Origin: Candidatus Saccharimonadales bacterium
Lineage (GTDB): Bacteria; Patescibacteriota; Saccharimonadia; Saccharimonadales; UBA4665
Direction of reading: 5' to 3'
DNA: 64,000 nt
Assembly (NCBI GenBank): GCA_036388415.1
Contig: DASVRW010000002.1
Coordinates: 186,001 to 250,000 of the forward strand
In this document: one piece after another, positions 12,583 to 22,506 of the stretch
Layout of the letters: every line of letters starts with the position of its first letter
Position numbering within the stretch: position 1 is the stretch's first letter
Notes under the pieces: generated by a model
Databases searched by the model: none
Seen by the model: the letters and a program-made list of their open reading frames with translations, nothing else
What the model was told of the DNA's origin: nothing
Made by a program: the position numbers and the translations under genes

Positions 12583-12966
12583 TTACTTTTCAGGCTCACT
12601 TTTCATATTTTGAAATACTTTCCATCCTTCTTCCGTTCCATCTTCAATGTCCTCTTCGTGTCCAAAGTAGAGTGAAGACGCTTGAATAGTTTCTTTACCG
12701 TATTCTTCAAATTGTTCAGTTTTCCAATTAATAGGCGTTTCAGAATCGATAACTTCAAAAACTTCTGATGGCATCCACCAAGGCAATTCGCTGTCGTCAG
12801 TAACGATAAAGTAGAATTTACCCAAGTCATTGATACGAACACCATAACTTGTATACTCTTTATCAATCGTGATTTCAAGATTACCGTTTTGGTCCTGCGT
12901 AAATGCGAACTTTCTCAATTTAACACTTAGATCATTTATGTTATTTTTGATACACTTCAGTTTCAT
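12583..12966 (-). CDS. Candidate immunity protein for the RHS toxin
   Basis: The 127-residue acidic cytosolic protein has no known motif that I can name; WWMPSEVFEVID near 58-69 is distinctive. Its ATG overlaps the RHS stop codon by 4 nt (ATGA), the classic toxin-immunity order in polymorphic toxin loci, and its acidity fits the strongly basic toxin tip it would have to bind. Function is assigned from position only. Low similarity to neighbours is expected since toxin-immunity ends are exchanged between strains. Confidence 0.6.
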   Translation of the reverse strand: MKLKCIKNNINDLSVKLRKFAFTQDQNGNLEITIDKEYTSYGVRINDLGKFYFIVTDDSELPWWMPSEVFEVIDSETPINWKTEQFEEYGKETIQASSLYFGHEEDIEDGTEEGWKVFQNMKSEPEK

Positions 12967-15900
12967 CGATATCTCTTTATCTTCACCTGTTTTACAGCTT
13001 TCTTAGACGAGTTGTAGAAGTAATGTACTATAACTTTCTTACCCTTATTTGTCAAAGGAACATGCCTGTACTCCATTTTTCGCCACCCATCTTTGGCTGA
13101 GTATCTAGCATCTTTAATTTTTCCTTTCATTATCTCTATGCCTACTTTTGGATTTGCACGAACAGTCTGCATAGCTAGCTTTTCACTAAGATTTCTAGCC
13201 GCTACTGTAGCAGCTTTCTTGGCTACATGTTTTGCGGCGTACTGAACTGCTATTCTCCCCGCAAATATCGCTACTGGTATTAAGAAAGCTGCTTGTCCGT
13301 CTAGATCTTCTTTGTTGATTGGATCAGCTGGGTAAATGTATCGATTTTCTACCCCGCCCTCTATTGGATCGACCTGTAAAAAGCGACCAAGGCTTGCAAT
13401 ATAGATCCTGGCACCCATTTCCTGAGGCTTAAGAGTAAAGTCTTTTTCAGTTTGCTTTTGATGCTTACCGACCCAGCCATAGCTATTGCCAGCGGTAGTG
13501 TTGTCTGCAGCAGTCGAGGACAACAATTGACCGAATGGATCATATTGATATGATCCGGTACTTGTACCATTAGTATTTGTTGTTGCCATGACGTCACCAT
13601 GTATATTCGGTAGACTGTAGGTGTCTTTTTTAGCAGCATCGGTTTCAGTTGGTCGGATAGTAAGTAGAACGCCACCAGGAAGTGCCTGGTACTTCTCAAC
13701 GACCGTCCAGCTAGTATTACGGATGAAGTCAGCGGTATCGCCAGTTCCAGTGTAGCCAGAAAAGGTTTGTTTTTGATTTAATCCATAATTGTCTTGACTG
13801 CGGTATTTAATGCGGTTTTGCGCATCGCGACTGAAGAAGGCTTCGACGCCTCCATTATTCTCAATTATCGCGCTATTGCGATCGCTTGAATCGTAACGGA
13901 ATTCTGTTCTGGTCGTGCCACTGCCAAGGAAACGGGTATTGCCATGGGCGTCGTACTCGGCATTTGTTACAGTAGGATCTGTCGAACTCACAAGCTGATC
14001 GGCATTGTTGTAGCAGTAGTTAGTTGTAGTGGTCGTACCACCATTAGTACGGGTCGCGCTTGTTCGGTTAGCGTTTTTCCCGGCGTTTGCGTTGTCGCCA
14101 ACGGCGCAACCGGTAGCGGTACCAAAGCCATAAGTGAACTGCTGCCCTGCAACCGTTGCACTTACTAATCTACTGGCTTTGTCATAGCTATAGCTTTTCG
14201 CTTGGCCTAGCTCTGTCCCGGAGATTATCTGACCAGACTGCGAACGAGTTACCGAATCGCTGACTTGAGATGTGCTGTCGCCAAGAGTGTAAGTAACATT
14301 GTTACTACGTCCAAGTTGGTCGTAACCGATACTGACAGCGGATGATCCGGCAGTCGGATATGTTGCGCTGTTCAAGCGGCCAAAGGCGTCGTAGCCAGCA
14401 TAAGATAGTACTACTGAATCGAGTTTCTGCTCTGTCAAGCGATTAAAATTATTGTAAACGTATTCTTCAAGACCAACCGGGCTGGTTTTAGAGGTGAGTC
14501 GGCCAATTGCATCGTAAACATATTGTGTAGTATTTACGTACGAGTCTGAGTAGGTAACGGTTCGACCTAGCAAATCAAATGTCGTTTGTATAGTGCCCTC
14601 AGGATCACTCGTGTTTGTAATCAGTGGGTTTCCGCCTACTGCCCAGCTATTAGTAACTGTTCTGGCTGATGCACCATTGATGGCTGGTATCTGCACCTGT
14701 GTGACGCGGCCACGATCATCATAGGTTGTACATGTCCACGGGTCAGTGTTATAGCGGATAGCTACAACCCGACCTGCGTCATCGTAGACTGTTTCAGTAG
14801 TGCGAGCAGCTCCGGCTCCGGCAAGACCCGGCTCAGTCTTAAGCTTAAGCATGCCGCCTTGCTTAAATACTTCAGTAGCAGGTGTGCACGGGTTATCAGC
14901 TGTTTCAGTCGCACCAAAGTAGCCGTAACTTGTGTTGGTGCCGCCAGGCAGTGTCTTGCCAATCATGCGCATTAAGCTCCCAGTTGCGCCTTGTGCTTCG
15001 TAGCTAGAGGAGGTGTTATAGTTAAGCCCGCCCGGATCAACAATACTACTTTGAGCGAGGCCCAACTCTGGACTGGCGCCGTAATTGGTATTTGTCTGTG
15101 TGTCACCGACTTGAGTGCTAGAATCGAAATTCTTTTGAGAAGTTGTTAAGCCGTATCGGGGTGTCAGCAGTGATCCTAATGCAGCTGTTTCGGATCCTCC
15201 CGGCGAAGTTTTGTAAAGAATGAGTTGAGCATCGTTTTCGGTTGTATTCTTATTGTAATACTCAACTCGGATAGGGTGATAGCTGTTAGCAACGGTGTTA
15301 TTAATCGTAACGTTCATATTCATAGCGTGAGAGCGTTGGCCGCCGTCTTCCCAGTCATTGATGATAAGCTTGTCATCAACGTATAAACGGACACCGTCGT
15401 CGCTATGTACCCTGAACGTATGTACGCCTACTTCATTGAGCTTGACATCACCACTTAAGCGTACGCCCCAGCCAGTATTGCCGTTGCCAGTATCGACCGG
15501 TGTCGGTACGGTTGAACCCCACGTCCGGTTGATATCACCGTTCGAGCCGCCAATACCTGTCTGATGGTTCTTAGGTGCTCCGCTCAATGTTTTAGTGCTG
15601 GATTTGTAGTTATAGTATGTAGCAGCAAGACTATTAATGCCTTCATCATAGCCACTTTGATTACGCGGTACTTGTGATACATAAGCAGCTAATGGCTTTC
15701 TATCTGCTCCAAACCAAGCGGACGGTGCTGCGCCGTATCTATCAGTCAACCGATCAGCATAATCATAGATATGCATTGTTTTAAGACCGACTGGGTCGGT
15801 GGTAGACAGGATCATGTCTTTAACTGGATCCCACTCGGTCGTAGTCATCAAGTTTGCTAAATCAGTATCTTGCAAGGTCCTGAAGGTACTGTCGTATTCA

Positions 15901-18900
15901 ACCTTACGGTTAAAGCCGACTGGTTCCGTGGCACCATCAACTTTTACGAATGAGTATCCGGCACTTGCTACGCCACTCTGAGGATCAACGCTGTTGTATT
16001 GATAGGAATGAGCTTGCCTGGTAGCTCCCGGTGTTGCCTCAGGATATTTGACTTTTGTAGCCCGACCAATCAAATCGTAGCTTATGGTCGTATTAAGCAA
16101 ATCACTTTGAGTTCTTACTCCAGCAGATACTGCATCGTTTGCTAGTGCGGTTCGCATCTGCGTAAGTAGCCCAGTTCCAGCTGAATCATAGCCAAATGAT
16201 TGTATCTCATTGCCAGGCTCAACAATTCGTGCGAGTTGCGGCTTACCAGTAGGATCGTTCTGATAGACAAATTGAGTTACACGGTTATCGGAGGTCTTTA
16301 AGGCACATACCATATTTGTCGGTACGGCATCGAAACCTGATGGCACAGCTGGACAAGCCGATTCACCAGCGTAGATCAATTGTGCAAAACGCGAAGTGTC
16401 CACAGAATCGCTTAACTTCAATAGATGGGTGATGTTAGGGTTAGCAGATCCGGGGCTTGTACCGTAATCATAGTTTATGACGGCTGCTTTGCGGCTATCG
16501 ACTGGATTAGTGACCGAGCGAATAGTACCATCGGAGTTAAAGACGTAGGTTTTTCCATCCGAATCCTGCAAAGTTAAGCTGCCATCGGCGTTACGAGTCA
16601 ATATGCCTTCTTCATTTGGCGGAGCAACATAAGCATTGTTAACGTATTTGTATTCATGAGTTTCTCCAGTTGCGTCACGTAAGACTACGCTGCTGTTATT
16701 AATTGCAGCAAATTCGTAAGTTAAGTCACCATCTTCATCTGCACTTAGCTTCCAACCGTCCGGTAAGGCCGGTACTTCTTGTGTAAGCATTTCGGCTGGT
16801 ACCACCCGTTCAGCTCCCGATGAATCTATCATATGTAGCTCTGCGGTAGCACCACCGGCGTTTTCATAGTACTCGACAGTAATTGGATATGACTGACCGG
16901 CGTTTAATTGAACGGTGTTTGATTGTGTCGTAATGCCAGGGTTATCAGCCCAGTTATTGAGTATCGGCGTAGTCGAATTATTAAGGAATACCCGACTGCC
17001 GTCATCAGCTACTGTCTTAAATTTGTAGTTATCGGTGACTTGAGGAGTGATATAGCCGCTCCAGCGAACCATGAAGTCGTCTGAAGGCGCACCTGGAATT
17101 GGACTACCGCCTCCCCAGTGGAATGATACCTGACTGTCATTACGTGTTAAGAAAAGTCGGTCATTAGCATTTGCAGGAAAGCTTGGTGAGGGGCCATTAT
17201 TGTCGCTGTAGTAATACCGTCCTGTTAATCCGTACTTGTCACTCACCTGCTTTACGCCGGTTTGAAGCCAGTTACTTAGCACGACCCGTTCACCATTTGG
17301 ATTAGATTGTGCATTGGCAAACTGAGGACCCTTTACATACAATTTCATTCTTGCACCTTGCTCCCAGTCAAAGTACTCAATCTTTATAGGAATAATTTGT
17401 CCGGCAGTCAGCTGTACTGAATCTGTACCGAATCTCAATGTCGGTGAACTATAACCCCAGCTGTCCAGTTTCGCGGTCGTTTCATTATTCACAAATATAC
17501 GAACGCCATCATCAGCATCAGCACCAAACTTATATGTTCCATCTAGCGGAGCGACAAAGTAACCTTGCCAACGAGCTAAGAAATGATCATTGCTAATCGT
17601 GCCCGGTTGCGGCGATCCGCCCAACCAATCAGAGTCCACAGCACCGTCAACACGAGTTACGGCCGGTGCGGTGCTTGGGAAGCAGGCACAGTTGGCCGCA
17701 TCATTCCAATACTGGGCAGTCAGCCCATTACGTGAGCGTACTGGGGAATTGTATTCTAGTCCTAAGCCTAGTGAGCCCCCTAATGCACTAACAGAATGAG
17801 TGTTATTAGAAGTAGTTACATTGCCAGTTGCCAAATCAGTTGAAACCCCTTCAACAGTGTCGAAGGCTTGCGTAGCGTCTTTGCCATTGCGCATATCAAC
17901 CCTAAACGACCGCACTTCGCTGTCTTTCCAAGAACCTAGCCGACCAGTTGCAGGATTGCCAGCATCTACTTGATCCCACGTTTGCACTTTCCAGTAATAA
18001 GTTGTTCCGTCTTTCAATGCGTTATCCGGTACCGTCCACTGCGGTGAATCGAGCCAATCAGACGATACGACCATACCACTATTTCCATCATTGCCAGTCG
18101 TAACGCGGAAGCGATACTTAACCGCTTGTCCGTCAGGATCGGTCGCGTAGCCACTTGTTAGAAACGGTTGTACATTAACGACCGTTGCTTTATCTGCCGG
18201 AGCAGTTAAAGCACTAGCAGCTGGAAGATTGTCATAAGTAAAAGTGACACGGGTGTCTTCATAATCAAAAGTCTTAAATGTATAGTTATCACTTTCATCA
18301 CCATTAACCATCATCCAGAAGCCGAAATCGCCGCCTGCAATCGCTTTACGGTAGAGCTCAGTCACGTCCATGTCACCTTGGTAACCGATGTTAGCACTGG
18401 CCGTACCATAGCTTCCGTCAATACCATGGTAATTGAATGCACCTAAGTGGCGTGCGTAGAACATACGTCCGTCGTATGTACCTTTAGTAGATATGGAGGA
18501 ATCATTTGGCTCAACCATTTGAAGGTGCAGAGAGGCATTTAATAAGTACTTATTAGGATCTTGTAACTGATCAAAATTAGCGTGCGTAGCAAACCGCCAG
18601 ATATAGTACGGTCTGTTGTTACCAGCGCTGTTGCTGCAGCCCATACCTGGATTGCATACGTAGCCATCGTGGCGGTAGTTCACATAATTGAAGCCATTGT
18701 TTGATACAAAGCTTGGGTCGACAATTACCGGAAATGATTTCTTATCTAATTTTGAAAACCAATCTTTGTCTACATCGACGGTTATTTCATTGTTGCTAAT
18801 TGTCTGTTTAACATATGGTTCGGATCCGACAATACCCTGGTCGGCAAGGCCAACAGTAGGTGGTGCTATATTAAGGTCAGCCATTTCACCGTCCAATTTA

Positions 18901-19754
18901 TAATAGCCAGGTTGATCAGGATTTGGACTTAAGCTTGCGCCATCTAATTTAAATTTGAAGTTGGTTTGACTTTCCGGCTTACTAATAACGATGCTTTCTT
19001 TTAGCTCGGAGGCATTAACTTCATACTTTACGTCTACCCCAGGCCAAACATTCTTGTAAGTAACAATTTGGTCAGAGCCGCTGTCACTTACTTCAGGCTC
19101 GCTATCTTTGCCGCCTATTGGAGTTAACTTTGCAGTTTGATTGCCCTGCTTTACATTAACGCCCTCAGTTTCAGTTAATTTCTTAAAAGTTACCTGCCAC
19201 TTGTTGGCTTTTGTTTTCCACTCGTTCTTTGACTTGTCTTTTTCGAGAGTCATATCAATGTCTTGCCACTTGCCGTCTTTTTGATAACTTGTCGGTAAAA
19301 CACTTTGCTCGACGGTTTTGCTGCCATCTTTATTAAGGAAGGTCTTTTGAGTTGGACTGCGATCTTCGTCGAGTACTTTAACTTTTGTAAGATCCCGTGG
19401 TTTACCGTTTTGAAGTACCTTACGGGTCTCGCTCAACTCGTTCTTCATTTTATCGGGAAGTTTAGAGACTTTCTTAGCGTCGCCCAGATCGACCGGGACG
19501 GCACCTGAAGCGACATTGTTCAAGGCTTGAGGCGTTCGGGCTTGCTTCTGCTGATAATCATAAAGAAATGAACCTAACCCAACTGTAAGGCTTGAAAAAG
19601 TAAAAACGGTTGCAACTGTTACTGCGGAAAAGCGCATATTAAAGTCTTTGATTTTACGCTCATTAAGCTTGTATTTTTTGTGTAATAAAAAAAGCGCCGT
19701 CAATTTTAACGGCGCTTTTGCAATTGCTTTGAATTTTTGGCCAAAACCTCTCAT
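12963..19754 (-). CDS. Giant WapA/RHS-like surface polymorphic toxin with three PA14 domains
   Basis: This 2263-residue protein has a basic N-terminus and a membrane anchor or signal at about 42-65. A WapA-like region to about 520 includes a DNRLRE-type module. PA14 carbohydrate-binding domains lie at about 671-818, 838-988 and 1371-1525. RHS/YD repeats lie between and after them, and the core closes at about 2125-2150 with DPIEGG and IYPADPIN. The last ~110 residues are a basic, distinct tip (GWRKMEYRH, VIVHYFYN) that should be the toxin; its fold is not recognised, an RNase is plausible. Family knowledge: RHS shells encapsulate and deliver such tips by contact. The start could instead be the ATG at 19631, because a terminator-like hairpin lies within the first codons. 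Confidence 0.88.
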   Translation of the reverse strand: MRGFGQKFKAIAKAPLKLTALFLLHKKYKLNERKIKDFNMRFSAVTVATVFTFSSLTVGLGSFLYDYQQKQARTPQALNNVASGAVPVDLGDAKKVSKLPDKMKNELSETRKVLQNGKPRDLTKVKVLDEDRSPTQKTFLNKDGSKTVEQSVLPTSYQKDGKWQDIDMTLEKDKSKNEWKTKANKWQVTFKKLTETEGVNVKQGNQTAKLTPIGGKDSEPEVSDSGSDQIVTYKNVWPGVDVKYEVNASELKESIVISKPESQTNFKFKLDGASLSPNPDQPGYYKLDGEMADLNIAPPTVGLADQGIVGSEPYVKQTISNNEITVDVDKDWFSKLDKKSFPVIVDPSFVSNNGFNYVNYRHDGYVCNPGMGCSNSAGNNRPYYIWRFATHANFDQLQDPNKYLLNASLHLQMVEPNDSSISTKGTYDGRMFYARHLGAFNYHGIDGSYGTASANIGYQGDMDVTELYRKAIAGGDFGFWMMVNGDESDNYTFKTFDYEDTRVTFTYDNLPAASALTAPADKATVVNVQPFLTSGYATDPDGQAVKYRFRVTTGNDGNSGMVVSSDWLDSPQWTVPDNALKDGTTYYWKVQTWDQVDAGNPATGRLGSWKDSEVRSFRVDMRNGKDATQAFDTVEGVSTDLATGNVTTSNNTHSVSALGGSLGLGLEYNSPVRSRNGLTAQYWNDAANCACFPSTAPAVTRVDGAVDSDWLGGSPQPGTISNDHFLARWQGYFVAPLDGTYKFGADADDGVRIFVNNETTAKLDSWGYSSPTLRFGTDSVQLTAGQIIPIKIEYFDWEQGARMKLYVKGPQFANAQSNPNGERVVLSNWLQTGVKQVSDKYGLTGRYYYSDNNGPSPSFPANANDRLFLTRNDSQVSFHWGGGSPIPGAPSDDFMVRWSGYITPQVTDNYKFKTVADDGSRVFLNNSTTPILNNWADNPGITTQSNTVQLNAGQSYPITVEYYENAGGATAELHMIDSSGAERVVPAEMLTQEVPALPDGWKLSADEDGDLTYEFAAINNSSVVLRDATGETHEYKYVNNAYVAPPNEEGILTRNADGSLTLQDSDGKTYVFNSDGTIRSVTNPVDSRKAAVINYDYGTSPGSANPNITHLLKLSDSVDTSRFAQLIYAGESACPAVPSGFDAVPTNMVCALKTSDNRVTQFVYQNDPTGKPQLARIVEPGNEIQSFGYDSAGTGLLTQMRTALANDAVSAGVRTQSDLLNTTISYDLIGRATKVKYPEATPGATRQAHSYQYNSVDPQSGVASAGYSFVKVDGATEPVGFNRKVEYDSTFRTLQDTDLANLMTTTEWDPVKDMILSTTDPVGLKTMHIYDYADRLTDRYGAAPSAWFGADRKPLAAYVSQVPRNQSGYDEGINSLAATYYNYKSSTKTLSGAPKNHQTGIGGSNGDINRTWGSTVPTPVDTGNGNTGWGVRLSGDVKLNEVGVHTFRVHSDDGVRLYVDDKLIINDWEDGGQRSHAMNMNVTINNTVANSYHPIRVEYYNKNTTENDAQLILYKTSPGGSETAALGSLLTPRYGLTTSQKNFDSSTQVGDTQTNTNYGASPELGLAQSSIVDPGGLNYNTSSSYEAQGATGSLMRMIGKTLPGGTNTSYGYFGATETADNPCTPATEVFKQGGMLKLKTEPGLAGAGAARTTETVYDDAGRVVAIRYNTDPWTCTTYDDRGRVTQVQIPAINGASARTVTNSWAVGGNPLITNTSDPEGTIQTTFDLLGRTVTYSDSYVNTTQYVYDAIGRLTSKTSPVGLEEYVYNNFNRLTEQKLDSVVLSYAGYDAFGRLNSATYPTAGSSAVSIGYDQLGRSNNVTYTLGDSTSQVSDSVTRSQSGQIISGTELGQAKSYSYDKASRLVSATVAGQQFTYGFGTATGCAVGDNANAGKNANRTSATRTNGGTTTTTNYCYNNADQLVSSTDPTVTNAEYDAHGNTRFLGSGTTRTEFRYDSSDRNSAIIENNGGVEAFFSRDAQNRIKYRSQDNYGLNQKQTFSGYTGTGDTADFIRNTSWTVVEKYQALPGGVLLTIRPTETDAAKKDTYSLPNIHGDVMATTNTNGTSTGSYQYDPFGQLLSSTAADNTTAGNSYGWVGKHQKQTEKDFTLKPQEMGARIYIASLGRFLQVDPIEGGVENRYIYPADPINKEDLDGQAAFLIPVAIFAGRIAVQYAAKHVAKKAATVAARNLSEKLAMQTVRANPKVGIEIMKGKIKDARYSAKDGWRKMEYRHVPLTNKGKKVIVHYFYNSSKKAVKQVKIKRYR
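19685..19718 (-). terminator. Terminator-like hairpin inside the 5' end of the RHS frame
   Basis: On the minus strand AAAGCGCCGT and ACGGCGCTTT form a 10-bp stem with an 8-nt loop followed by seven T, a textbook intrinsic terminator. It lies about 12-23 codons after the first ATG of the RHS gene, so it either attenuates that gene or shows that translation begins downstream at 19631. Confidence 0.65.
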
Positions 19755-20159: not shown

Positions 20160-20226
20160 TGGTCACTCCTTTTGACTGCTTGGTCTGGCTCCGGGGACTG
20201 GGCTCGAACCAGCGACCTAGTGGTTA

Positions 20227-20795
20227 CATATTATCCACTATTTTCATAGCGGCATGGACTATCTCATCATCCTTATTGCTAAGGATGCAGGGCGCTTATG
20301 AAGGATTATTGCTTAAGGTCTCACCTTCTAGTCTCTGAACCTTCCAAGCGTTGAATGTAATATTCAGTGCCTCTAGCTTGGCTTGGCTGCGGATCAGCAT
20401 ATCCCGTATAGGACGTAGCTTTCCCGACAATTCACCCTGTTTTCACTGCATGATTACTCATACAGGCTGCACTTCGACGATACCGGCATGCACTTCTCGG
20501 TGACAATTAGCGCAAATAAGGACGCATTTATCTGCTTCTTCGACAACTTTATTCCAGGCACGCGTTAATCCGCCTGATGACACACCGAATAATTTCTGAT
20601 TCGGATCAATATGATGAAGGTCAAGAGCATCGATACATTTATTGTAACCGCACAGCATACATTCCCCGCCTTTATACTCGACTAGCTTCTTGCGAACTGC
20701 CCTGCGGCGTTTCGTAACAGCTTTTTTGAGATATTCTGCGCGGTGAATGTATAATCGGCGTTCTGGCATACTTCTATAAGTATACCGTATTTCGT
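20227..20795 (-). ncRNA. Group I self-splicing intron in the tRNA-Asn anticodon loop
   Basis: This 569-nt intron has the classic core elements in order on the minus strand: P/Q (AATTGTCGGGAAAGC at 20418-20433), the GCAGCCAAG segment (20382-20390), R (GTTCAGAGACTAGA at 20327-20340) and S (GAGATAGTCC at 20256-20265). GACTA of R pairs with TAGTC of S as P7. The 5' exon ends in U and the intron ends in G, as required. A GCAGT at 20445-20449 can pair with the exon end GCUGU with a U-G wobble at the splice site, so the ORF would lie in the P1 loop. Core type resembles the tRNA introns of subgroup IC. Confidence 0.9.
20458..20769 (-). CDS. Intron-encoded HNH homing endonuclease
   Basis: The 103-residue protein lies entirely inside the intron, starting 26 nt after the 5' splice site. 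A basic N-terminus (KRRRAVRKKLVEYKG) precedes an HNH core: zinc cysteines C37 and C40 in CMLCGYNKC, the catalytic region LDLHHIDP at 49-56, and CVLICANCHREVHAG near 81-95 with two more cysteines. Such enzymes cut intronless alleles so that the intron is copied in. The small size fits a minimal HNH nuclease. Expression requires transcription through the tRNA gene, as no obvious separate promoter is seen. Confidence 0.88.
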   Translation of the reverse strand: MPERRLYIHRAEYLKKAVTKRRRAVRKKLVEYKGGECMLCGYNKCIDALDLHHIDPNQKLFGVSSGGLTRAWNKVVEEADKCVLICANCHREVHAGIVEVQPV

Positions 20796-20944
20796 ACAGC
20801 CACCCGCTCTACCACTGAGCTACCCCGGACTATGCCAGAGAATTATTCACTACTACACTGCGAATTGTTAATGAACCCTTATGACTAGGGTGATTATATC
20901 CGACCTCTCCCTATGGTGCAACTAATTGTAAGATGCCAAACGGC

Positions 20945-21412
20945 TTACGAGCGCCTTGCCTTGAGGGCTGCATTGATATTGCGGGTTTCATCGCGCTTTT
21001 TGAGGGCTTGGCGTTTGTCATATAGTTTTTTGCCGCGGCCTGTTGAAATGCGAAGTTTTATGAACCGGGTTTTGGTCAGCATTTCAAGCGGCACGATGGT
21101 CTGGCCTTGTTGTTTGGCCGCGATCAGCTGGTCGATTTCTTTGCGTTTGGCGAGCAGTTTGCGGGCCCGGGTTTGATCAGATTCGCTGATCGGAATACCG
21201 TTGCTCGGGCTGATCGTGGCATTGATGAGCAACAGCTCGTCGTCTTTGATGGTCACATAGGCGCCGCGAAGCTGGCCGTGGCCCATGCGCAGTGCTTTGG
21301 TCTCTGCTCCGCTGAGCTGTATGCCGACAAGCAAGCTGTCGCCAAGTTCGTAATCATGCCGTGCTCGCCTATTAGTAATCGCTGACGCGGTGTGTTGTTT
21401 TTTCTTAGCCAT
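20945..21412 (-). CDS. smpB: SsrA-binding protein SmpB
   Basis: The open frame is longer, but the ATG at 21412 gives the right 155-residue protein, starting KKKQHTASAITNRRARHDYEL. It contains the SmpB barrel signatures GIQLSGAETKALRMGHGQLRGAYV, LLINATISP and RKLLAKRKEI, and a basic Lys/Arg-rich C-terminal tail that enters the decoding centre. SmpB carries tmRNA to stalled ribosomes for trans-translation. A TTGTCA-18-TACAAT promoter ends 9 nt before the start, so the mRNA is nearly leaderless. The tmRNA gene itself was not seen in the window. Confidence 0.95.
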   Translation of the reverse strand: MAKKKQHTASAITNRRARHDYELGDSLLVGIQLSGAETKALRMGHGQLRGAYVTIKDDELLLINATISPSNGIPISESDQTRARKLLAKRKEIDQLIAAKQQGQTIVPLEMLTKTRFIKLRISTGRGKKLYDKRQALKKRDETRNINAALKARRS

Positions 21413-21421
21413 GATCACTCT

Positions 21422-21475
21422 ATTGTAGCGAACTATCCGTACTATTGACAAAAGTATTGACAAAAGTGATATAAT
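21422..21475. promoter_or_regulatory. Divergent promoter region with tandem 12-bp repeat
   Basis: Minus strand: TTGTCA and TACAAT (21422-21427) serve smpB. Plus strand: TTGACA (21445-21450) and TATAAT (21470-21475) serve the hydrolase at 21484. Two adjacent direct copies of ATTGACAAAAGT (21444-21467) overlap the plus -35 and could be an operator. Confidence 0.65.
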
Positions 21476-21483
21476 GTATTGAT

Positions 21484-22506
21484 ATGTCACGAATGAGACG
21501 CCTGCAGGAATACTATGCTTTTGACGCTGCAATCGTTGACGATGTTGACCAAGCAGCAGAGCTTCAGAACCGCCTGAATTTTGCCGAGCTAGCCGACAAA
21601 TATAACGTCGCAAACGGTTCGTCAGCCGTGCTACCTGATGGTGCTACGAAACCAATCGAAGTTATGACGCTGACACCCAAGCACGATTATGATGAGCACG
21701 CAGCTCGAGTCTACCACACGGCGTTTGGCTATCCCGTCAATAAAAATACTGCACTGCATGCTATGCGCATGTTTGAAGCCGACGACAGCGAGCAGCTGAT
21801 TGTGATAGGTAATCCAGCAATGGTCGGTATGAAAACTGGCAAATTATCTTTGCGCCAATCTCATGAGGTATATAAAAATGCGTCGTTGCGTCCAGCGGTC
21901 GATGCGCCGCTACGCTACTTAGAACAAGCAGGTATCACCCACACGAAGCATTTGGGGTATTCATACGGCGCAGACAAAGCTGCTACGACAATAGCTGAAA
22001 GCGGTACCTACAGCCAGGTAGCTAGCCGAGGCGTCCTTATAGAGCCGGTGTCGGTTGTCGAACGTAGCATGATCGAGCTTGTCAAAGCTTTTGGTGAAAG
22101 TGGTAAAGTCCAGCGGCAGTATATTGACCAGACAGAGAGCCGGCCGTACGACGAAATTTGGTCCGAAGATTCGATCGTCAAGGCTGCAGCGTGGGGTGCG
22201 GGCTTGGTTCGAATGAGTAATCTGGCTATTGCTAGTATCCTCGCATCTGACGGATTCAAGCAGCGGGCATCGGATGCGCTGCAAGCAAATGACGAAACAG
22301 ATCTCGTGATCGGTTGGGGCACGAGCAGCGAGCTATGTCCGGGCGATACATTACAGGCGGTGACAAACAGCCTGCGGGCGCAGCACGGTCTGACCAGAGT
22401 TGAGTCTATGCCGATTACAGGTATGCACCATGCCGGTGTCGATGATCTGGATTTACACGCTGCAGTTATGCTCCAGGGTATTCATTCGACCTCCCGACGG
22501 GAGTAA
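21484..22506 (+). CDS. Alpha/beta-hydrolase-like protein
   Basis: The protein has 340 residues. HLGYSYGADKA near 158-168 fits the nucleophile elbow G-x-S-x-G of alpha/beta hydrolases, preceded by a strand with LIVIGNPAMVG and followed near the end by GMHHAGVDD, which can supply the histidine. No signal peptide is seen. The substrate is unknown. The start follows a TATAAT box by 8 nt, so the transcript is leaderless. It diverges from smpB and has an acidic helical N-terminal extension of about 60 residues before the hydrolase fold. Confidence 0.65.
   Translation: MSRMRRLQEYYAFDAAIVDDVDQAAELQNRLNFAELADKYNVANGSSAVLPDGATKPIEVMTLTPKHDYDEHAARVYHTAFGYPVNKNTALHAMRMFEADDSEQLIVIGNPAMVGMKTGKLSLRQSHEVYKNASLRPAVDAPLRYLEQAGITHTKHLGYSYGADKAATTIAESGTYSQVASRGVLIEPVSVVERSMIELVKAFGESGKVQRQYIDQTESRPYDEIWSEDSIVKAAAWGAGLVRMSNLAIASILASDGFKQRASDALQANDETDLVIGWGTSSELCPGDTLQAVTNSLRAQHGLTRVESMPITGMHHAGVDDLDLHAAVMLQGIHSTSRRE

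Follow-up and report, generated by a model that had tools for sequence, protein, structure and literature searches.

The tRNA-Asn(GUU) gene at 20186-20829 on the minus strand of the window, the 64,000-nt stretch of DNA that was analyzed, is cut between nucleotides 35 and 36 by a 569-nt group I intron, and this intron carries an ORF for an HNH endonuclease. By the features that define the class at the level of sequence, the element is a group I intron and is predicted to be self-splicing. It is very probably a mobile intron with a homing endonuclease directed at tRNA-Asn genes, which would have been captured from a free-standing source by collaborative homing. The feature had been described in an earlier note on this DNA, and all of the parts named there were confirmed in their places on the minus strand (Table 1).

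Table 1. Features of the split tRNA-Asn locus, with their positions in the window.
Feature	Position	Strand	Basis
tRNA-Asn(GUU) 5′ exon (nt 1-35, ends ...GGCTGT)	20796..20829	-	ARAGORN with introns
Group I intron, 569 nt, after anticodon position 35, intron-final G	20227..20795	-	ARAGORN, Rfam, empty sites in congeners
tRNA-Asn 3′ exon (nt 36 to CCA)	20186..20226	-	ARAGORN with introns
Rfam Intron_gpI (RF00028) match region	20235..20489	-	81.9 bits
Candidate -10 box TATACT	20779..20784	-	Motif match
103-aa HNH endonuclease ORF, stop TGA in P2	20458..20769	-	PF01844, invariant positions, AlphaFold model
Internal guide sequence (IGS) GCAGCC	20465..20470 (intron nt 326-331)	-	Pairs with exon GGCUGU
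P2 hairpin CUGUAUGA-GUAA-UCAUGCAG	20446..20465 (intron nt 331-350)	-	Covarying helix, 20-sequence alignment
R element GUUCAGAGACUA (P7 5′ strand)	20329..20340	-	Rfam alignment; nearly all columns invariant in 20 sequences
S element GAUGAGAUAGUCC (P7 3′ strand)	20256..20268	-	Rfam alignment; 20-sequence alignment
ORF holding presumed smpB, start probably MAKKKQ... about 21409; upstream neighbor of tRNA-Asn	20945..21613	-	ORF list

The split tRNA-Asn gene and its empty sites

With introns allowed, ARAGORN joined the two exons into a tRNA-Asn(gtt) that has an encoded CCA and a 569-nt intron after nucleotide 35; run without the intron option, it missed the split gene. The acceptor stem (7/7), the anticodon stem (5/5) and the T-stem (5/5) of the joined tRNA are fully paired, in agreement with the claim of the earlier note that the two halves form tRNA-Asn when joined at 35/36. 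A search of the whole genome, which is 99% complete, for a second tRNA-Asn returned 40 other intact tRNA genes and none for Asn. The assembly is without 16S rRNA (RF00177 search), tRNA-Ile(GAT) and tRNA-Ala(TGC), which presumably belong to one unassembled rRNA operon, and because this region is absent from the assembly some room is left for a second copy of tRNA-Asn.

Related genomes were also searched for intronless tRNA-Asn, a check that the earlier note had suggested, and an empty site was found at the orthologous smpB-linked locus in two congeners (G081 and G082). The neighbor at the empty site in both is the same ORF, which we take to hold smpB from sequence similarity. The 3′ exon of the window is identical to the intronless allele of G081 in 43/43 nt, and the presence or absence of the intron differs within one genus. 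Also beside the tRNA locus, at 12963-19754, is the gene for a 2263-aa repeat protein that resembles RHS/YD-repeat proteins; G081 and G082 have other ORFs at the corresponding place in the 1.5 kb that were looked at.

Intron core and secondary structure

A covariance-model search, likewise proposed in the earlier note, matched RF00028 on the minus strand over the full length of the model with 81.9 bits and an E value of 2.8e-19. This match bears out the P/Q, R and S core with P7 that had been read from the letters, and the exon-final U and intron-final G that had been claimed are both present in the sequence. The RF00028 search found no other group I intron in this genome.

The exon sequence GGCUGU pairs with the IGS to form P1, with a U.G pair at the 5′ splice site. 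The IGS was placed in the homologues by an HMM with GCAG as the seed, and GCAGC stands at the IGS place in 119/119 homologues, having been chosen as the GCAG nearest to the expected place. Just four pairs of P1 (CUGU/GCAG) hold throughout, a constancy that is partly by construction because the choice of the IGS was seeded. Covariation between exon and IGS that would support a 6-bp P1 was tested and was not found, and the fifth pair is A-C in 21 introns. In its covariation, position 31 goes with position 39 of the anticodon stem (98 times G-C, 21 times A-U) rather than with the IGS. The anticodon stem, we infer, remains paired during the first splicing step. A canonical P10 with the 3′ exon was not evident by inspection, and the anticodon stem may take its place.

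The 20-sequence alignment of the core contains 52 consensus pairs, with double-sided changes in 30/52. P2, P3, P5, P6 and P9 vary and covary, while P7 is invariant in the 20 sequences and thus uninformative on covariation. As for peripheral structure that may point to subgroup IC3, inspection of the same alignment by eye shows P2 and P9 capped by GNRA loops and a P5 that resembles a receptor (CCUAAG...UAUGG).

The HNH ORF inside the intron

The earlier note had also claimed that the intron carries an HNH gene, and the ORF matches PF01844 with an E value of 1.1e-4 and 22.7 bits, above the Pfam cut-off of 21.4; at E 0.01, Pfam matches 10/14 members of this HNH family. NCBIfam returned no match to the HNH. 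The AlphaFold model is a confident one (pLDDT 89.6) and its best Foldseek matches are mostly HNH nucleases, none with an E value below 0.001; by sequence, a group II intron maturase provides the nearest solved structure, in its C-terminal part. Across 14 proteins there are 27 invariant columns, and the metal/catalytic and zinc-ligand positions are invariant. Purifying selection on the HNH is strong, as judged from its relatives, where dN/dS is about 0.02-0.12 at saturated dS.

The ORF extends from intron nucleotide 27 (start) to 338 (stop) and occupies the stretch that separates the 5′ splice site from the IGS, with its C-terminal codons doubling as the IGS (part of Val-Gln-Pro) and as the 5′ strand of P2. 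Among the homologous introns that bear an HNH, the ORF starts upstream of the IGS in 34/34 and overlaps it in 32/34, and the ORFs of the other two look truncated. In the ORF-less introns at 35/36 the median distance between splice site and IGS is 8 nt, which makes the HNH an insertion into the loop of P1. The location in the P1 loop that the earlier note had proposed therefore stands as a position but not as a confinement, because the ORF runs through the IGS into P2.

Expression of the HNH gene

A single RNA would not be able both to form P1 and P2 and to be translated to the end of the HNH ORF, and for this reason the message for the HNH is probably a separate short transcript that starts inside the intron. 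The location of the IGS within the endonuclease ORF would pit splicing against translation in an essential tRNA. In the window, CGGTATACT is located 9 nt upstream of the HNH ATG, and TGGTATA is found before the HNH start in 10/29 introns compared to 0.35 in shuffled sequences. A consensus scan did not score the TATACT box as a full -35/-10 promoter. TATACT may be an intron-internal promoter that yields a leaderless HNH message without the 5′ exon and freed from splicing. The intron endonucleases of phage T4 also have promoters of their own (PMC2988022). A possible translation switch, a hairpin at the start codon (GGTATAC...GTATGCC) that is present in the three HNH introns of Saccharibacteria, was rejected: in other lineages the TATACT half persists while the hairpin is mostly absent, which makes a promoter the preferred reading of the motif.

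Distribution of introns at tRNA-Asn 35/36

At least 120 tRNA-Asn introns at 35/36 were collected, at least 113 of them distinct; a pattern scan with one genome per species gave at least 113 loci. Exon-final U and intron-final G are present in 120/120, the G being required by the search pattern for most. The same HNH family is located in P1 in at least 34 of the collected introns, and 60 introns at the site are under 300 nt and have no ORF. Among 93 genomes of the same family, RF00028 matches were found in 25, and 13 have a tRNA-Asn intron at 35/36, three with an HNH; two of these same-family introns are identical in sequence to introns in other records, one of them Candidatus Saccharibacteria. 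The phylum sample had a matching intron in 32/380 genomes (about 8%). At many loci ARAGORN calls of tRNA-Thr(tgt) were set aside, since a two-base shift of the junction gives the same tRNA-Asn.

Going by record titles, the hosts include many Patescibacteria lineages, Omnitrophota, Nitrospirota, cyanobacteria (including the strains Microcoleus FACHB-61 and Tychonema LEGE 06208), Elusimicrobia, Chloroflexi, Planctomycetes, Bipolaricaulota, Proteobacteria and Pacearchaeota, in records that are mostly MAGs and in which single contigs may be misbinned. The earlier note had called the intron unusual. This can be said of the searchable open-access literature but not of nature, given the frequencies in the family and the phylum and the presence in other phyla and in archaea. 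In one cyanobacterial MAG (L169), an 898-nt tRNA-Asn intron contains an ORF (intron nt 211-859) that is LAGLIDADG-like in appearance and lies outside P1.

Three Pacearchaeota contigs (L067, L069 and L153) have a group I intron in tRNA-Asn. The tRNA-Asn of L067 and L069 starts with G, where the bacterial ones start with U, and the neighbors of the Pacearchaeota introns are archaeal IF-2 beta (L067, L153) and archaeal KH proteins. The L067 intron scores 83.1 bits, an HNH is found in L153 and a truncated HNH in L069. A 2018 survey of archaea recorded 39 group I introns, all in rRNA (PMC6125680), and group I introns in archaeal tRNA genes would extend the known range.

Three contigs classed as viral (L244, 2490-2758; L305, 869-1149; and L240) have group I or group I-like introns in tRNA-Asn; those of L244 and L305 do not reach the Rfam threshold, and L240 could be a bacterial contig that was wrongly classed. 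According to a 2014 review, every phage intron observed up to then lies in a protein gene. Multiple group I introns on a single contig were seen in L043 and L046, where the host is 23S rRNA, and in clusters in G027, G046, G051, G057 and G059 (same-family Saccharibacteria). A 2024 survey found the rRNA of Saccharibacteria to be nearly free of group I introns.

HNH relatives beside tRNA-Asn

HNH relatives are present in 44/380 genomes of the phylum sample, and among the best 30 HNH loci, 27 are in tRNA-Asn introns and 3 are directly upstream of tRNA-Asn. The free-standing genes come from three Patescibacteria families (L223, L229 and L234) and end about 15-50 nt upstream of tRNA-Asn. In L223 the tRNA-Asn is intact (1821-1895), and in L229 (1815-2096) and L234 (1128-1447, minus strand) it contains ORF-less introns of 210 and 245 nt, respectively.

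The viral set consisted of 67 non-redundant HNH relatives in IMG/VR contigs, and the counts that follow are raw ones that take no account of kinship. A tRNA is located within 100 nt of 55/67, and 46/67 have tRNA-Asn there (33 downstream, 16 upstream). At 25 viral loci (including L246, L253, L259, L268 and L269) the stop codon of the HNH lies 9-10 nt inside the tRNA gene, and in the examples that were read it is a UAG supplied by U8-A9-G10 of the tRNA. In two isolate phages tRNA-Asn also precedes the HNH gene, by 17 nt in Cronobacter CR3 and by 64 nt in Klebsiella Muenster. Asn makes up 61/403 (15%) of the tRNAs in the viral HNH loci.

The location of phage HNH genes by tRNA-Asn might be a by-product of phage tRNA arrays in general, and the intron would simply have acquired one of the HNH genes common among phages. 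Phages do commonly carry the wider HNH family, and more distant relatives in Felix-O1-like phages and in Erwinia phage Kaldavass lie beside other tRNA isotypes. However, Asn is found on at least one side of 46/55 tRNA-neighbored viral relatives compared to about 28% expected if the isotypes were random, a figure that is inflated by the kinship of the phages counted, and the association recurs outside of phages in the three Patescibacteria families. We consider such a by-product improbable, though it keeps more weight than the other alternatives.

Proposed mechanism

In the reading that we prefer, that of a mobile intron with a tRNA-Asn-directed homing endonuclease, the pre-tRNA would fold so that exon nucleotides 32-35 (CUGU) pair with the IGS (GCAG). 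A guanosine would attack after U35, and U35 would then attack after the intron-final G to produce mature tRNA-Asn(GUU). The HNH is predicted to recognize intronless tRNA-Asn genes as a homing endonuclease, with the repair of the break copying the intron in. It belongs to a family that is also free-standing beside tRNA-Asn genes in phages and in some Patescibacteria, and it would most likely have been recruited from such a source, perhaps a phage, into an ORF-less intron because both elements already targeted tRNA-Asn.

Alternatively, the intron could splice while the HNH has a role other than homing, such as that of a splicing helper or in phage exclusion, and the element would then be immobile and inherited vertically. 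The many ORF-less introns at the site would be in line with this, as would a tree in which the Saccharibacteria HNH proteins largely group together (poorly resolved, with 6/26 branches well supported). Such a role is unlikely in view of the invariant catalytic and zinc-ligand positions and of the variation in intron presence within the genus, and the HNH beside an intact intronless tRNA-Asn (L223) would not be explained by a maturase role. It is most doubtful that the locus is a split pseudogene that is not spliced and is served by another tRNA-Asn from the missing rRNA region or from a host cell, as the incomplete gene set might allow, because both exons are intact, the 3′ exon is identical to that of the congener, the intron core is intact, and the same intron-bearing configuration is found in 12 other genomes of the same family.

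For the mobile intron that we favor, we lean slightly toward a wider interpretation as well, in which the HNH and the intron together would form a mobile element that occupies tRNA-Asn(GUU) in DPANN archaea as well as across bacterial phyla, the archaeal and viral tRNA introns included, and in which the series of arrangements would be a record of group I introns becoming mobile. HNH genes next to tRNA-Asn, some with an intron there and some with none, provide a natural series on the long-standing question of how ribozyme introns acquire endonucleases. In practical terms, a tRNA finder that makes no provision for introns overlooks these genes, and many genomes will consequently seem to lack tRNA-Asn.

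Comparison with known systems

The known group I introns in the anticodon loop of bacterial tRNAs (cyanobacterial tRNA-Leu(UAA), Azoarcus tRNA-Ile(CAU) and tRNA-Arg(CCU), subgroup IC3) are similar to the present intron in their small core, insertion in the anticodon loop, exon-final U, intron-final G, and GNRA loops on P2 and P9. The present intron differs in its host, tRNA-Asn(GUU), in the 35/36 cut, in its putative homing endonuclease gene, and in a distribution that is wide beyond cyanobacteria and proteobacteria. A 2014 review placed tRNA group I introns in cyanobacteria and alpha/beta-proteobacteria only, with none in archaea (PMC4033280). The known tRNA hosts are Leu, fMet, Ile and Arg, with Gly and Lys in one study (PMC5733544), and the accessible part of Lui et al. 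mentions group I introns in some CPR tRNAs and gives no isotypes there (PMC8172020). In the open-access literature, which was the scope of the search, tRNA-Asn was nowhere found reported as the host of a group I intron, whether in bacteria, archaea or phages; the 35/36 site is widely reused and yet unreported in that literature. CPR rRNA group I introns with LAGLIDADG endonucleases come from the same radiation and intron class, but there the hosts are rRNA genes and the enzymes are LAGLIDADG, and tRNA introns are not treated (PMC11270868).

In terms of the endonuclease, the Synechocystis tRNA-fMet intron with I-Ssp6803I is also a group I intron in the anticodon region of a tRNA with its own homing endonuclease, but I-Ssp6803I belongs to the PD-(D/E)XK family (PMC1995217), whereas the enzyme in the window is an HNH. 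The accessible part of the same 2007 compilation lists eleven HNH enzymes of phage introns and none for a bacterial tRNA gene (PMC1995217). Phage T4 has a free-standing homing endonuclease, SegB, among its clustered tRNA genes (PMC2988022); it differs in being of the GIY-YIG family, in its tRNA-Arg/tRNA-Ile region, and in having no intron.

The new points are the host gene with its insertion site, the presence of this HNH family in an intron of a tRNA gene, the breadth of hosts including archaea, and the three-state association with tRNA-Asn. This last pattern is similar to the layout of collaborative homing in phages, with an HNH gene by an ORF-less intron (L229, L234), by an intact target (L223), or internal to the intron (the window), the targets being predicted. 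Collaborative homing has been described in phages, for example at psbA (PMC3984707), whereas here the gene concerned is a cellular tRNA gene and all three states are found in one phylum.
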